Positions 17,848-37,779 of a DNA stretch of 38,769 bases are shown here, in pieces (position 1 is the first letter of the stretch; every line of letters begins with the position of its first letter). Position numbers and translations under genes: made by a program. Under the pieces are notes generated by a model. That model did not search any database and was not told the DNA's origin. It was given only the letters and a program-made list of their open reading frames with translations. Source of the DNA: Candidatus Scalindua arabica (GTDB taxonomy: Bacteria; Planctomycetota; Brocadiia; Brocadiales; Scalinduaceae); NCBI GenBank assembly GCA_018263435.1, contig JAANXD010000040.1:1-38769 (forward strand), in the 5' to 3' direction.

Positions 17848-18720
17848 TTAGTAAAGAGGGAAACAGGGAGATTCGTATGGTTTGGTTAGGCGTTCCAGTA
17901 CATAATAGATTCTACGTGTAGTTCCCTCCCGCTCGACCTGCAAAGAATTAATGTAATACCCCCCGGTATCAAAATAATGGATAAGAGTTTTCTGGACAAG
18001 TTCACGCCACTCGCGTGCGATTTGTATATTGGAGACTTTCATTCCTTCAATATCATCCGGTATCTCCAGAAACAGCACATCATCTGTCAGCGTTAAATCT
18101 GAGCCAACCGGGATGAGCAGCCCCTCTTCGTCACGTTCCGTTCTATTTATGTTCAAACCTTCTTTTGGCTGTATCTTCGCAACCTCTTGATTCTCTCCAT
18201 TCATAATGGTTTTGACTCTGTCACTGAGAAGCCACCATTCAGCAAGAAGACGGTCTGTGCCCAGGCCGCTGTGCAGTTTACTGGAAGTCTCCTCCCCATA
18301 CAGGTTGATGTCGTAACTGCAGGCAATGATGCCTAACTTGTTTATGTTCAGATGTGCATTCCTGGATTGTAACGGGTCGAATGCCCATGTTATGAGATCT
18401 ATGTTGCGGCTCAGGGCTTCTTCCCGTTGGGCTTTCTTTAACCTGAAACCGATATTATGGTCACGATATTCCGGCAATACTGCCATCATGTGTGAATGTT
18501 GTGAGGGCCGTCCATAATGAATTGCAGCAACGCCAAATAGAAAGCCTATCATTAAGTCTCCATCAAAGGCTCCCATTGCAAATCCACCATGTTTACACAC
18601 TATTCGCATAAATCTTGAGGGTATTATGTCAGCCTTACTAAATTTCCATACTGCTTCCTGCAGTGTTTCGCAGGGTTCTAATTCTTTGACTGTCCTTAAT
18701 TGCTTGAACGTAATAGGCAT
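17848..18720 (-). CDS. GNAT-family N-acyltransferase, COG3375-like
   Basis: Acyl-CoA-dependent N-acyltransferase of the GNAT superfamily. The 290-residue length and the sequences GFLFGVAAIHYGRPSQHSHMMAVLPEYRDHNIGFRLKKAQRE and ITWAFDPLQSRNAHLNINKLG are characteristic of COG3375. In Geobacillus, such an enzyme with an N-succinylamino acid racemase and a deacylase turns D- into L-amino acids through N-succinyl intermediates. The acyl-CoA site is the RDHNIGFRLK loop (about 87-97). It is the second gene of an operon with the dehydrogenase (three-base gap, GAAG before the ATG). The substrate is inferred, not shown. Confidence 0.85.
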   Translation of the reverse strand: MPITFKQLRTVKELEPCETLQEAVWKFSKADIIPSRFMRIVCKHGGFAMGAFDGDLMIGFLFGVAAIHYGRPSQHSHMMAVLPEYRDHNIGFRLKKAQREEALSRNIDLITWAFDPLQSRNAHLNINKLGIIACSYDINLYGEETSSKLHSGLGTDRLLAEWWLLSDRVKTIMNGENQEVAKIQPKEGLNINRTERDEEGLLIPVGSDLTLTDDVLFLEIPDDIEGMKVSNIQIAREWRELVQKTLIHYFDTGGYYINSLQVEREGTTRRIYYVLERLTKPYESPCFPLY

Positions 18721-18723
18721 ACT

Positions 18724-19725
18724 TCAACAGGAATAGGATATTGTTTCAATGTTTGCCATAGTCTTGAGACCAGCGGGAGCTTTGATTACTGCGGGTATGG
18801 CGTTGGCTGTAATTGCGCAGGTTGCAATGTCGCCATTGATACCGTCTTTAATGGTCATATCAATATCTGGCGTTCCCTCTATAATAATACGGTCACGTGG
18901 ATTGGATTCTCCTACGGTTGCTTTGAAGATCAGGGTAATCACTTCCTTGTTTTCTATATAACCACGGCCAGTCTGGCTGACTCCTGTCGCTTTGCCGGGC
19001 TCAATTGTGAGTTCATCAGTAGTTACCTTTTCTGTGGCAATAACAGGATCTATAATATCTTCAGTCTTGTCCAGTTTCCAGCCAATCTTGTGGGCAATCA
19101 TATGTATAGATTCGGTTAACCCTACGTGCCGCAAAGTGCCTTCTTTTACCCTATCATTGAATTGTTCTACCGTGAGGCCTGCACCAATCTTCTTCTGAAA
19201 TGGAATCCTCCTGAATTGTGCGTTTTGAATGCGCTCCACAGTTACCTTTTTAACATTACGACAAATACCAGTCATTGCCAATGGGAGGAAGTCCATCAGA
19301 AATCCCGGGTTAATACCCGTAGCCAACACAGAAACATCATTCATTTTTGCCGCTACGTCAATCTCATCGGCTGTTTTCGGGTTGGTTAACCATGGATGCG
19401 AGAGTTCTTCACAGGTTGAAACTATATTAACTCCGAACGATACAATCTCGAGAATTTGTGGTTTGATATTTTCAAGACTCGACGTGGTTGTCAATACAAC
19501 AATATCAGCATCCACTTTACTGAGTAATGTTTTTGGGTCACCTGTGATACGCACACCGTAAGCTGAAGATGATCCTGCCAATTCACCAATATCAAGATTT
19601 AGTTTCGTTGGATCAGAATCTATAGCGCCAACAATCTGGACACTATCTCTTTCAAGCAGATATTGAGTGATTTTGTTCCCAATAGGCCCAAGCCCATATT
19701 GAACTATCCTGTTCTTGTTATCCAT
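18724..19725 (-). CDS. 2,4-diaminopentanoate-dehydrogenase-like / DapB-fold oxidoreductase
   Basis: NAD(P)-dependent dehydrogenase related to dihydrodipicolinate reductase and to 2,4-diaminopentanoate dehydrogenase (Ord) of ornithine fermentation. The 333-residue protein starts with a Rossmann fold (VQYGLGPIGNKITQYL, GAIDSDPTKL, VVLTTTSS) and has a C-terminal substrate domain with ATGINPGFLMDFLP, typical of the Ord/COG3804 group. Other ornithine-degradation genes are absent here, so it more likely reduces or oxidises another amino or imino acid (inference). No Shine-Dalgarno is visible; a TATAAT lies three bases before the ATG. Co-directional with the acyltransferase gene. Confidence 0.85.
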   Translation of the reverse strand: MDNKNRIVQYGLGPIGNKITQYLLERDSVQIVGAIDSDPTKLNLDIGELAGSSSAYGVRITGDPKTLLSKVDADIVVLTTTSSLENIKPQILEIVSFGVNIVSTCEELSHPWLTNPKTADEIDVAAKMNDVSVLATGINPGFLMDFLPLAMTGICRNVKKVTVERIQNAQFRRIPFQKKIGAGLTVEQFNDRVKEGTLRHVGLTESIHMIAHKIGWKLDKTEDIIDPVIATEKVTTDELTIEPGKATGVSQTGRGYIENKEVITLIFKATVGESNPRDRIIIEGTPDIDMTIKDGINGDIATCAITANAIPAVIKAPAGLKTMANIETISYSC

Positions 19726-19839
19726 TAAATTATAGTAATTATGAGACGTTTTTATTATATTGGAATACTTATTCTCACCCGAAAGAAAGTACGGAAAAGA
19801 AACAAAACTTAACTATCCACAGTCCAGCAAGAGGTAGAA

Positions 19840-21993
19840 ATGTCGTTAGACGTTACAAAACAAGCAGACGAAAGACTTCCTGAACTTACCGCTTTAGGAA
19901 AAATACAGAGTCGGATAGATAAAGTCAAGTTCATTATTCAGGATAAAGACAGGGCTTTCTACAATAAACATTGCAATTTATTTGAGCGTTTGGAAGATCC
20001 CAGACAAAGGTTTATAGATACGATAAACCTGAAAATGGACGATGGGTCTATAAAATTCGTTAAACTGTTTCTGGTTCAACATAACCTGGCATTTGGTCCC
20101 GGCAAAGGCGTCTTGAAGTTTATCAGACATGTTCGTCTTCCAGAAGGTGTAGGCAAGTTGTCACTACAAGGGGTAAGGGATAGAGTGGAAAAACTGATAC
20201 TTGAGGAGGTTGAGGCTTCAGCGACAAGTATGAGTTTGCACCATGCCCTTTACAATGTAAAGTTAGGTGGTGCAAGTAATGCCATAATGCTTATGGATAT
20301 TGCGGAAATTAGGGGGGAAATTAAAACGATCCCAATCCACTTAACCGGAAATGAAACGGCAAGGCTCTCAAGAGAAATAGGTAACAGACTTGTTAAATAC
20401 CGCATTATGGGTCCGGATGGTTTCTGGCCGGAACCTGATGGTGTCACTACTGATGAACAGATAATAAACTGGGTGGAGGATGAGGCGTTGAGAACACTGC
20501 TTTTAAAACATCTCCTTGCGCCTAAGGATAAAAAACTGATGGATGTTCTGAGTATGGTTCATGGCCAAATAGAAGGAAAAGGAGAGGCCGGAAGAGGGGA
20601 AATGGAGATACTGGAAACACCTTATCATGATGCCGCATTAATATGGCTGAAGGAATGGAGAGCAATAAGGCGGGGAGAGACGGCAATGGAGGAGTTAAAC
20701 TCCGAAGAGTCGAAGGTCAGTAAACACTACAGGCAAATGATATCAAGGACTGAACGGAAATATGATGTAATGCCGGCCATTGCCAGAGATATTATAGCTG
20801 TCAAACGGCTACTTACCGTAATGCACCTTCCGTTCAGGGACTATAGGCCTAACGGGCAGATAGTGATTATGGATACAGGGATTGCACCCGTAATCTTACA
20901 TGGATATTTGTCAGTGTTGGAGGGGCTTTCCGGTGAAGACGTAGTTGTCACCAGTGTATTTTCAAAACGTCTTGGGGGCAGCTCTCCTAAAAGAATTGAG
21001 CAGCTTTGCAGAATATATGTGGAAGCGGCATATAACCTGGGCGCTAAGGTTGTAATTCTCTGTAATACTATGGATGCCAATTCAAGGATTATACTGGAAA
21101 AAGAATTTACCATCCCTATTCTCGGCCCTATTGTACCTGCTGTAGAAACCGTGTTTAGCCTGGAGAGTGCCAGGGGGGCAGTGATAAAGAATATCGGAAT
21201 AATTGCGACAAAGTCTACGATAGAAAGTGGTGCTTACATAAATGAGATTAGAAAGCATAATAAAGAAATCGGAATATTCAGCGTAGCCGCACCGCTTTTT
21301 GCTACTATGGTGGACAAGGGTAAGTTTGATAAAACTGGATCTCAGGTGATTAGCAAAAGGGACATGTCTATTATCGAAGCTAATCTAAAGCCTCTTATAG
21401 AAGAAGAGATCGAAATTCTCATTTTGGGGTGTACCCATTACGGCATATTTAAGCAGGCGATACATGAGATCTGGAAGAGCCGTACAGGTAGAGAGATTCA
21501 AATTGTAGATTCTGCCAGAGAACTTTCCCGTTATACCCAGGCTTTTCTCAGACAGAATAAGATATTGTCTTTAAGAACGAAACAGAAAGGAAAAATAACC
21601 TACATGGCCAGCGAAGAAGATACTCCGGAGTTTGAACGAAAAGTGTCAGAGATTACAGGATATATGGCTAATGTTGTACCGACAGACATCGGTGAAGTGG
21701 TTGGCAGATTGAGCGAGGAAGATAGATCATTCCAGAAAACAGTAGTTAAGGAGAGCAGGGAGGACATCAATCTAAGAGCCGGTATCATCGATTCGAATCT
21801 ATCTGCTGAGGCCAAAGTTGCTATTGCGGACAAACTATATGGAGTTAAAGATAAAAGTGTAAGCCGGACCGGCTGTGAGGTATTATCGCCGGAATTGAAA
21901 GATGAGCATATAAAAGAGATAACCGGGTTAACCACGCAAAACGAAGAACTGTTAAATATCCTTTCTCGCATCAAAAATACCACTTCCCGATAA
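19840..21993 (+). CDS. fusion: decayed ELFV-dehydrogenase N-terminal domain plus glutamate/aspartate-racemase domain
   Basis: A 717-residue protein. Residues about 60-215 match the dimerisation/substrate domain of Glu/Leu/Phe/Val dehydrogenases: LKMDDGSIK, VQHNLAFGPGKGVLKF, ALYNVKLGGASNAI, MGPDGFWPEPDGVTTDE. The Rossmann domain is absent, and the second catalytic Lys (GGAKGG in active enzymes) is replaced (GGASNA). Residues about 340-580 match MurI-type cofactor-independent racemases, with both catalytic cysteines (Cys408 in VILCNTMDAN, Cys531 in LGCTHYGIF), Asp345 in MDTGIAP, and DSARELSRYTQAF. The middle and the C-terminal 130 residues are unassigned. AGAGGT precedes the ATG. It is transcribed divergently from the dehydrogenase gene. 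Confidence 0.82.
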   Translation: MSLDVTKQADERLPELTALGKIQSRIDKVKFIIQDKDRAFYNKHCNLFERLEDPRQRFIDTINLKMDDGSIKFVKLFLVQHNLAFGPGKGVLKFIRHVRLPEGVGKLSLQGVRDRVEKLILEEVEASATSMSLHHALYNVKLGGASNAIMLMDIAEIRGEIKTIPIHLTGNETARLSREIGNRLVKYRIMGPDGFWPEPDGVTTDEQIINWVEDEALRTLLLKHLLAPKDKKLMDVLSMVHGQIEGKGEAGRGEMEILETPYHDAALIWLKEWRAIRRGETAMEELNSEESKVSKHYRQMISRTERKYDVMPAIARDIIAVKRLLTVMHLPFRDYRPNGQIVIMDTGIAPVILHGYLSVLEGLSGEDVVVTSVFSKRLGGSSPKRIEQLCRIYVEAAYNLGAKVVILCNTMDANSRIILEKEFTIPILGPIVPAVETVFSLESARGAVIKNIGIIATKSTIESGAYINEIRKHNKEIGIFSVAAPLFATMVDKGKFDKTGSQVISKRDMSIIEANLKPLIEEEIEILILGCTHYGIFKQAIHEIWKSRTGREIQIVDSARELSRYTQAFLRQNKILSLRTKQKGKITYMASEEDTPEFERKVSEITGYMANVVPTDIGEVVGRLSEEDRSFQKTVVKESREDINLRAGIIDSNLSAEAKVAIADKLYGVKDKSVSRTGCEVLSPELKDEHIKEITGLTTQNEELLNILSRIKNTTSR

Positions 21994-34435: not shown

Positions 34436-35518
34436 TTATGGTAAAAAACTGTCTGCCTTCTTTAGCTTTTGGGGAAGATATTTTTCAATTACATAGTTTA
34501 ATCCATGTTTTGCCAGTGCCTGCTGTTCTGCTCTCACGCCCATCTTTAACATCTGATTAATTGCCTTCTGCCACTCCTTATACTGTTTTATAAATGGGTC
34601 GTTTTTCAATGCGTCTTTTGCCCTCTTTGTATCTATTTCCTTTAATGGATGAGTTGGGAGTTTGTAGTCAATGATATCCTGTGGCGTTATGCCAAGGTAT
34701 CGTGCGTTAGGTACGCAGAAATATTGGTTAATGTGTGCCGCATTTCCTGACCCCACCTTAAGGGTTCTGTATATGTTGCTGATACCATAAGGGTCTCCAT
34801 CAACAAAGACATATACGGGTATCTTTTCCCCCTCTGACAAACGCCTGATGAATCTTCTGCATGCCCTGGTTGGCACTCCTCCCATAGAAATTAATATGCA
34901 GTTTGCCTTCTTCCAGTAATTGTGTTTTACAAGTCTTTGGAACATTCCGGCAGTCTCTATTACCAGTACAAACTTTGCGTTGGTTTCGAATTTCAGGTGT
35001 TCGGTTGAGATCGGAATAGAGTATGCGCCTGAACCGAACTTGGTGCAATCAATCTTGAGTTGTTTGCCGGTTTCCTGGTCTTTATCTATTACTACTAACT
35101 TTCCGGCGACATCTCCTCCCTTCTCTTCCGGGATAAAGCCCAATTGCTCTCTGTTAACCTCAAACATTGCTTCAACGTCATCTATTACGGTATCTGATTC
35201 AGGTTGTTCATCAAAGCGTGCTTCGTCCCAGTTCTTGGATACATAGTAGGCCTCCCTTTTTGTGGCTATGTCATCTTTTTTAATGAGTTCTTTGGAAAGG
35301 GACATCACTCTCAGTGTCTGGGCAAATGTCTTTACGGTATTCACTGTTAAAGTGCGGGATTTTTTCTGCCCGACAAGTTCTAAAAAACCTCTCTTTGGAA
35401 TGTATTTGACATTGCTCAATGAACGAATTGGAAAAGACATACTGGGTTTTTGTTTCTTGGTGATCTTGTTGTGAATGGTGGAAGCAGATTCTTCTATTTT
35501 CTTTAATGTTTTTGTCAT
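34436..35518 (-). CDS. top6A: DNA topoisomerase VI subunit A (Spo11-like)
   Basis: Catalytic subunit of the type IIB topoisomerase that passes one duplex through another. The 360-residue protein has the winged-helix region with the catalytic Tyr pair ([11 protein letters not shown], Tyr91-Tyr92) and the Toprim domain: Glu188 in LVIETAGMF and DGD (Asp240, Asp242) in VFVDGDPYG, followed by [11 protein letters not shown]. Domain order and length agree with archaeal Top6A. It overlaps top6B by four bases (ATGA), so the subunits are made together. Topo VI is typical of archaea and plants and found in few bacteria. Confidence 0.95.
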
Positions 35519-37110
35519 GATCTACTCCTTTCAAGGATATCTGTCAGGTTATTGACTATTTTTTTCTCCTGCCTGTCGTTCAGGCTTAATATTTCCTTTA
35601 GCGCTACTCCAATGTGTGGAATGTATTTCTTTATATATGATTTTTTCTTGAATTCGTCAGCTGCCTTCTTTTTCCTCTTAATAAATGTAGATAGATGTCG
35701 TCCGCACTCTTGTAAGGCCAATTTGACTTCTTTTTCAATTTCAGGGTAATGTGCTATTGCCTCCTTGCTTTCTGATGTAAATGGAACCCAGACAGATGCG
35801 AGGTGCACCATAAGGAGCACTGGTCCTGACGGAAGCGCACCGGCAGATTGTTGTAGCCCATAATTTCTCCATGAAGTGTTTATTACTGACTCGGCAATAA
35901 CACATGCTGACTGCTGGTATAGCAAAGGGACTCTATTGGCGAATCTTAGTAATCGAATTAATCCCTCTTCCGGCAAATCACCTCCGTATGCCAGACCAAC
36001 TTCAATTTGAAAAGGGTTGCCTCTGTATACTGATGGAGGACGTGTATTTGATGTGAAGAAATCTGCATTGATCTGTTTTTTGAGGCCCTTTAAAATAGAT
36101 TCTTCGCCAATTGGAGAGATGCAATCTGTAGGGGGATTCATGATTTTTGTTAATTTGATTGCTTTGAAGAGTGCATCAGCTTCCTGGACTGCGATTCTTG
36201 AAGGTCGGGCCTTTCCATTTAAACCGGCTTTTTCACAAATTTCATTTGCGACTTTTGTGCTTACCCTGGAGAAATCATTAGTAAGGCAGGAGCGGAGATT
36301 CTTTGCTTTTGTGTCATGGAGCATCTTTATCAAGATTCCCAGCTCAATTCCATAGGGGTGGGGTTTTATTTCTTTCGGATCGGCCGGTAACTCTTTTGAA
36401 GCCCTGGGATACCTTGTTTCCTTATCTTCGGGGTTAATGTATGTTATATCAGTGTGTGGATTGGCGATGGATGTTTGTTCAATATATCCGTCCACAGACT
36501 GCCGGCCTTTCTGGTATCTGGCCTCCAGCTCAATAACGACTTTTGTTCCTCTTTTGGCGTCGTAATCCACTATTTCATCTTTGATAATACGTGGTTCATT
36601 CTTTTGTGTGTCTACGACGAGGCTGTAATGATGCGCTGGTTTTCTCGGTGATATCTTTGAGGTTATCAGTATCGGTTTGCCGGTTGTTAGCTGGCCATAC
36701 ATCCCTGCTGCTGATATGCCTATTCCCTGCTGCCCTCTTGACATCTTAAGTCTATGGAACTTTGAACCGTATAGTAACTTGCCAAAAATTTTTGGTATAT
36801 GTGATTTTAAAATACCCGGGCCATTGTCTTCAATGGTCACCCTGAATCTATCCTCCGTGTTTTTTAGCTGACTTATCCTGACTTTAATATCAGGGAGAAT
36901 TTTTGCCTCTTCACAGGCATCAAGCGAATTATCAATGCCTTCTTTAATAGTTGTGAGTAAGGCTTTTCTGGGGTTGTCGAATCCAAGTAAATGCCTGTTC
37001 TTTGTAAAGAATTCACTAACAGAAATCTCGCGTTGCTTTTTAGCAAGGTCATGAGCCGTAACCTTGTGTTCTGCCTCAGTTAGTTTTTTTCTTTTTTTTG
37101 AAGTTGCCAT
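35515..37110 (-). CDS. top6B: DNA topoisomerase VI subunit B
   Basis: ATPase subunit of topo VI. The 531-residue protein has the GHKL ATP site: Glu57/Asn61 in [18 protein letters not shown] (93-100) and [14 protein letters not shown] (126-139). A helix-two-turn-helix region and the transducer domain with its switch Lys (conserved FEVGLAYGG-type segment near 390) follow. The length matches the archaeal protein without extra C-terminal domains. No Shine-Dalgarno is visible before the ATG. Downstream of the archaemetzincin gene with a 15-base gap. Confidence 0.95.
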
Positions 37111-37125
37111 TTTTGATAATTTCTT

Positions 37126-37779
37126 TTAATTGGTAATTGCCTTTTTGTCTTCCATGATTGACTTGCAGTTACTACAAAAAGCAGCTCCTTTGTGATCTGT
37201 ATCTCTCAAGATTTTTGACAAGAACATAACGCATCTGTTATCTGTGCAGTGTCGAAGTCCATATGTATGTCCCAGTTCATGAACGGCTTCGATAATAATC
37301 CTTTTTTTAAACAGAGTAAGATCTTCCGGTAGGTCGTAAAATTTTTGTCTAAGTCTTGTTAAGGAAATCACTGCTATCTTTTTCTTTATTACTGCTTCTC
37401 CAAAAACGAATGTACGCTCAGGTACATATAAATCTACGTCTACTATTCCCAGTATCCTATCATATCCTGTTAGTCCTAATTTGTGTATTCGTTTCAGTAT
37501 TTTTGTTGAATGATACTGCATTTTATGTTTGTGATACGCATAAATTGGATCTTCTAGTTGTCTGCCAATGTCTATTTTTACGTTAAATCTATCTTCAAGT
37601 TCTTTTTGTGTGTAATGTAGGATTTCTTTGTCTATGGTTCCTATCGGGATGATACAAACTTTTTTTTTACTCATAGAAGTACTTGATGCGTAGTTTGTTT
37701 TTGTGGCTGCATTTCCCATTAATAGTAACAGTGGTATTAGAATTGAAAGTTTTTTACAGCATTTTGGAACTGATATCAT
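37126..37779 (-). CDS. archaemetzincin-family metalloprotease, secreted
   Basis: Zinc metalloprotease of the archaemetzincin (AMZ) family. The signature is complete: HELGHTYGLRHC, CVM four residues on, and a downstream CSNC pair for a second zinc. The 217-residue protein begins with a signal-peptide-like stretch (CCKKLSILIPLLLLMGNAA), unusual because archaeal AMZ is cytoplasmic and normally begins near VCIIPIGTID (residue 41). An internal ATG at 37674 would give the leaderless form, but no good Shine-Dalgarno supports either start. Precedes top6B on the same strand. Substrate unknown. Confidence 0.88.
   Translation of the reverse strand: MISVPKCCKKLSILIPLLLLMGNAATKTNYASSTSMSKKKVCIIPIGTIDKEILHYTQKELEDRFNVKIDIGRQLEDPIYAYHKHKMQYHSTKILKRIHKLGLTGYDRILGIVDVDLYVPERTFVFGEAVIKKKIAVISLTRLRQKFYDLPEDLTLFKKRIIIEAVHELGHTYGLRHCTDNRCVMFLSKILRDTDHKGAAFCSNCKSIMEDKKAITN

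Follow-up and report, generated by a model that had tools for sequence, protein, structure and literature searches.

How does the front part of a glutamate dehydrogenase come to be joined to a glutamate racemase, and what does it do there once its nucleotide-binding half is missing? This question is raised by a gene in the window, by which we mean the whole of the 38,769-nucleotide contig JAANXD010000040.1 of Candidatus Scalindua arabica. The window is one contig of a 2.69-Mb genome (102 contigs) from the phylum Planctomycetota. A hydrazine synthase alpha domain scoring over the cut-off is encoded in this genome; the domain is found in 40 of the 62 genomes sampled from the order and in 0 of 14 controls. 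Since a MAG of the same genus, B27T3L11 (L051), has in addition been published as "Candidatus Scalindua" (PMC8938466), we take the host to be a Scalindua-type anammox bacterium.

The gene is an open reading frame with an ATG start codon, whose features are collected in Table 1. A preliminary description, made from the sequence alone, had read its product as the N-terminal domain of a dehydrogenase, devoid of the NAD-binding domain and joined to a MurI-type racemase, and the domain and structure searches bear this out. ELFV_dehydrog_N (PF02812) matches residues 61-215 (E 1.4e-10, 41.4 bits against a curated cut-off of 25.3), Asp_Glu_race (PF01177) residues 404-558 (E 2.6e-7, barely over its cut-off) and the NCBIfam model glut_race (TIGR00067) residues 382-594 (E 8.8e-27, at 94.1 bits below the equivalog cut-off of 146.65). 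Across the NCBIfam models for glutamate racemase the best match is at 3e-27, and none reaches its equivalog cut-off. In a sequence search of the PDB the C-terminal part finds glutamate racemases (6e-19) and the N-terminal part glutamate dehydrogenases (1e-6). Both folds predicted in the preliminary description are present in the AlphaFold2 model of the protein (mean pLDDT 82.5, pTM 0.69, from a 58-row alignment): Foldseek returns glutamate racemases, the best at 2e-16 and with a TM by target of 0.88-0.89, as well as the ELFV-type enzyme phosphinothricin dehydrogenase at 3e-10. The stretch that separates the two folds (228-328) consists of helices only. The ELFV_dehydrog NAD-binding domain (PF00208) gives no Pfam match in the 717-aa protein and is also absent from the alignment and the model.

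Table 1. Features of the fusion gene and its upstream region (positions in the window)
Feature	Position	Strand	Basis
GNAT-like acetyltransferase, the neighbour kept most persistently upstream; listed as context rather than as a proven part	17848..18720	-	domain scan, locus comparison
Divergent 2,4-diaminopentanoate-dehydrogenase-like gene, so placed in just 5 loci; listed as context rather than as a proven part	18724..19725	-	domain scans, locus comparison
Divergent intergenic region; conserved block 19730-19740, TTATAGTAATT here, TTATAGAAATT in most relatives	19726..19839		locus comparison
ELFV-racemase fusion gene, 717 aa	19840..21993	+	ORF list; single frame in 13/17 family genomes
ELFV dehydrogenase domain I, residues 18-222 (Pfam 61-215)	19891..20505	+	Pfam, AlphaFold2 model, alignment
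Ser146 at the third catalytic Lys site of GDH (GGxKGG); a 12-residue insertion begins there	20275..20277	+	alignment with 32 dehydrogenases of the order
Helical linker, residues 223-291, least conserved region; NAD domain of the long homologues missing here	20506..20712	+	model, alignment, dN/dS
Remnant of the final dehydrogenase helices, residues 292-330, IIAVKRLLTVM	20713..20829	+	alignment with long homologues and dehydrogenases
MurI-type racemase domain, residues 336-615	20845..21684	+	Pfam, NCBIfam, PDB sequence search, Foldseek
Asp345, equivalent of the MurI DSG aspartate	20872..20874	+	invariant
Cys408, first catalytic Cys	21061..21063	+	invariant
Cys531, second catalytic Cys (GCTHY motif)	21430..21432	+	invariant
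C-terminal helical tail, residues 616-717	21685..21990	+	model, dN/dS

With a family model at E ≤ 1e-40, 20 of the 62 genomes of the order give a match, 14 of them among the 17 genomes of the window's family (f1) and six in a second anammox family (f5). The fusion is one frame in 13 of the 17 f1 genomes, being cut by a contig end in two of these (G001, G004). In one more (G002) it is split into two frames by a stop and a frame change within the linker (G002:C39:23110-25261; L047, L051), which could be either natural or an assembly error, and it is absent from G006 (77% complete), G010 (96%) and G015 (92%). Recurring as a single frame in so many genomes, the fusion is no artefact, and chance similarity or a frameshift is ruled out by a full-length frame kept at 57-84% identity across four genera. 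Outside the order no fusion was found in a phylum sample of 392 genomes, and a scan of IMG/VR gave only a separate racemase-like match and no fusion (L199, IMGVR_UViG_3300015370_000073; 25% identity, E 1e-13). A literature search found no paper on such a dehydrogenase-racemase fusion, either in the short form of the window or in the long form described below, and the architecture has apparently not been described so far.

We think it reasonably likely that the protein is a cofactor-independent two-cysteine racemase of the MurI mechanism acting on an acidic amino acid, likeliest glutamate, and that its N-terminal third is a dehydrogenase-derived module without redox function. The catalytic cysteines had been placed at residues 408 and 531, correctly so, and they are invariant in 12 f1 proteins together with Asp345, Asn409, Thr410, Thr457, Thr460, Thr532 and His533, all of which match MurI. 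The catalytic and pocket roles of the racemase residues are presumed here from established knowledge of MurI structures. An active racemase would anchor the substrate by Asp345 and Thr346, take and give the alpha proton by Cys408 and Cys531 and be assisted in catalysis by Asp492 and His533. The protein is like the MurI glutamate racemases (TIGR00067; PDB 2gzm, 1zuw, 2jfq) in its Asp/Glu racemase fold and in the two catalytic cysteines with Asp, Thr and His, but it adds a 335-residue ELFV module and a tail of about 100 residues, scores under the equivalog cut-off and differs at three positions of the pocket. Thr346, Leu378 and Asp492 are each found in 12 of 12 f1 proteins, whereas 39 of 39 MurI have Ser (DSG), Tyr (PYG) and Glu, respectively. 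Because of these three fixed changes glutamate is not to be assumed as the substrate. They could indicate a racemase or epimerase of something else (aspartate, aminoadipate, cysteate or a modified amino acid) that does not supply D-glutamate for the wall, and such a role would fit the divergent GNAT gene and its companion nearby, which is either diaminopentanoate-dehydrogenase-like or 2,3-aminomutase-like. However, Thr457 and Thr460 of the GTxxTI stretch of MurI are retained and the best matches are glutamate racemases rather than aspartate or cysteate racemases, and we regard another substrate as possible but rather unlikely. A protein that is a pseudo-enzyme on both sides, lacking racemase activity and serving as a regulator or scaffold, would likewise account for the altered pocket and the score under the cut-off, but it is improbable given that both Cys, Asp, Thr and His are invariant and the surrounding motifs retained.

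The dehydrogenase part is still recognizable as domain I of ELFV glutamate dehydrogenases (PF02812) with their last helices, but it is without the NAD domain, has four insertions and does not keep the catalytic lysines (GPxKGG, xxxK, GGxKGG). Only the second lysine had previously been noted as lost; this is right but undercounts the loss, as two of the three are gone in the window protein. At the second position (window residue 134) the f1 proteins have His, Tyr, Phe, Arg or Asn, and the first (Lys89 in the window) is Lys in 3, Gln in 8 and His in 1 of the 12 f1 proteins. The lysine of GGxKGG is replaced in all proteins of both the short and the long type, so that glutamate oxidation is not expected of either form. 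Asp200 of the dehydrogenase pocket is retained in 11 of the 12 f1 proteins.

Such decay of the lysines, together with the apparent loss of the NAD domain, is what one would expect if the stump were a neutral passenger of an ordinary racemase, functionless beyond not harming its folding. Yet Nei-Gojobori dN/dS ratios, computed region by region on six pairs, are 0.12-0.28 for the ELFV domain and 0.11-0.22 for the racemase, and the stump has been retained across four genera, which leaves little probability for a passenger. The remaining regions have values of 0.10-0.28 (remnant helices), 0.08-0.22 (tail) and 0.19-0.59 (linker). The stump is constrained about as strictly as the racemase, with purifying selection on both halves. 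The view of the preliminary description, in which the dehydrogenase half is kept as a non-catalytic module only, is well supported by this selection, by the lost lysines and the absent NAD domain, and by the existence of NAD-bearing homologues. In glutamate dehydrogenases the ELFV domain I forms dimers and hexamers. A role of the module in oligomerization is at least as likely as the allosteric binding of an amino acid or the presentation of substrate to the racemase, which the preliminary description had proposed; the domain would then assemble the racemase and/or bind glutamate or a related metabolite, thereby tuning racemase activity.

A search for homologues of the same architecture had been proposed in the preliminary description; besides the single frames of the window's own family it yielded a second family in which a full dehydrogenase is joined to the racemase. 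Four f5 genomes (G026, G032, G036, G038; L031-L034) encode fusion homologues of 916-920 aa, each in one frame. The domain scan covered the G026 and G032 proteins and detected in both of them ELFV_N, the racemase and, at an E of about 1e-36, ELFV_dehydrogenase (PF00208); the proteins of G036 and G038 are 79-80% identical to that of G026, and the frames of 932-948 aa in G416 and G417 are assigned by a profile match to the same family model. The model of the G026 protein has a pLDDT of 72.6 with the NAD region only partly resolved, and in the PDB it is matched best by glutamate dehydrogenases. The long form has the domain order, the insertions and the loss of the third lysine (GGxKGG) in common with the window protein, but keeps the NAD domain and the first two catalytic lysines. 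It also differs in the racemase pocket, where Ser and Glu are retained and Phe stands in place of Tyr, and in that its genomes (G026, G032, G036, G038) encode a separate MurI as well. Of the four loci with the long form, three have glutamate-synthase-like and RidA-like genes upstream, identified by a domain scan in one locus and by similarity in the others. The homologues with a complete dehydrogenase and the lysine loss common to both forms are new facts.

The two forms have probably arisen from a single fusion event, and the dehydrogenase was probably catalytically dead before its NAD domain went, as suggested by the insertions in common, the joint clade and the third lysine lost in both. 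In a tree with 32 dehydrogenases of the order, the ELFV parts of the short and long forms fall into a single clade (100/99), and their racemase parts group together against 45 separate MurI (98/89); both trees were flagged with a long-branch warning. Independently of this warning, a common origin is supported by four insertions that the alignment reveals in the short and long ELFV parts and that are absent from the 32 dehydrogenases: about 8 residues past the first helix (KDxxFY), about 30 residues past GPxxG, 12 residues at the catalytic lysine of GGxKGG and 2 residues ahead of IMG. By hhalign the short profile aligns with the long one over 18-297 (E 1.3e-23), and in the alignment the short form, without the NAD domain, picks up again at the last helices (VAAIKRITSTM in the long form). 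ELFV dehydrogenases generally possess an NAD domain, which makes its loss in f1 a more economical assumption than its gain in f5, and it was most likely lost in the lineage of the window. This looks like a step-by-step record, with a full dehydrogenase plus racemase in one anammox family and a stump plus racemase in another and, if true, would be a clear case of one enzyme converted to serve as a module in another, unrelated one. A bifunctional dehydrogenase-racemase that borrows its nucleotide domain from another protein or works by a new mechanism is most improbable, for although the genome encodes other ELFV dehydrogenases and the long homologues have a recognizable NAD domain, the third lysine is lost in both types, the window type also lacks the second, and the first is mostly Gln.

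For the racemase with a non-redox module we count the domains and fold, conservation in 14 of the 17 f1 genomes, the long homologues, the insertions in common and the joint clades, the lost lysines, the invariant catalytic residues of the racemase, the equal purifying selection on the halves and the lack of any other glutamate racemase family match in 13 of 14 genomes while MurD is universal. Against it we count the three pocket replacements, the equivalog score, the long-branch warnings, two well-complete relatives without the gene and the fact that D-glutamate is evidently made without MurI in the order. A more far-reaching and tentative possibility is that the dead dehydrogenase came to sense glutamate, 2-oxoglutarate or NAD(P)H and to gate the fused racemase, which would couple nitrogen status to the supply of D-amino acids for the cell wall; Scalindua-type bacteria might later have simplified this sensor by cutting out its nucleotide half.

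The fusion bears on D-glutamate synthesis in anammox bacteria as the sole MurI-like protein in most of the Scalindua-type genomes searched. The exception among the 14 f1 genomes holding it is G011; its separate MurI, encoded on a 3-kb contig, clusters with sequences from other phyla and could be of foreign origin. MurD was found in 59 of 59 relatives. G010, G015 and the f2 genomes (G017, G020, G023, G025 and others) gave no glutamate racemase family match, though MurD is present. D-amino-acid-aminotransferase-like proteins occur in 56 of the 59 relatives, none of them over the cut-off of that family. It follows from the MurI-less relatives and these nearly universal proteins that D-glutamate can evidently be made without MurI, and the idea of the fusion as a proven sole source is therefore not supported.

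The conserved block in the intergenic region sits about 100-110 bases ahead of the start of the fusion. The GNAT-like gene is divergent and upstream of the fusion in most f1 loci, and LexA lies downstream in most loci. Beside the GNAT gene, two kinds of neighbour swap between Scalindua-type genomes (18724-19725 in the window and the corresponding places in L035, L036 and L041-L043): the diaminopentanoate-dehydrogenase-like gene is found in the window and in four other loci and a 2,3-aminomutase-like gene is near instead in six others, the window's genome encoding that aminomutase on another contig. A function could not be derived from the neighbours since these two types replace each other between loci and no pathway emerged; a literature search on a succinyl-amino-acid racemase pathway likewise found nothing.

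Elsewhere in the window's genome (contig C78, L167:5484-8789) a protein of 1101 aa joins phosphoglycerate kinase, helix-hairpin-helix and glutamate dehydrogenase (PGK E 4e-77, HhH 1e-11, both ELFV domains). Its kinase motifs look degenerate and its dehydrogenase lysines are retained. Most f1 genomes have long matches to it at 74-91% identity; in the rest of the order a fusion of this kind was not matched. It may be as unusual as the ELFV-racemase fusion. This protein has a similar insert and was considered as the source of the ELFV part, but the tree places it among ordinary dehydrogenases. Further along the window, positions 34436-37110 encode subunits A and B of topoisomerase VI, an archaeal-type enzyme, here in a bacterium, and these genes are followed by one for an archaemetzincin-like protease (37126-37779).
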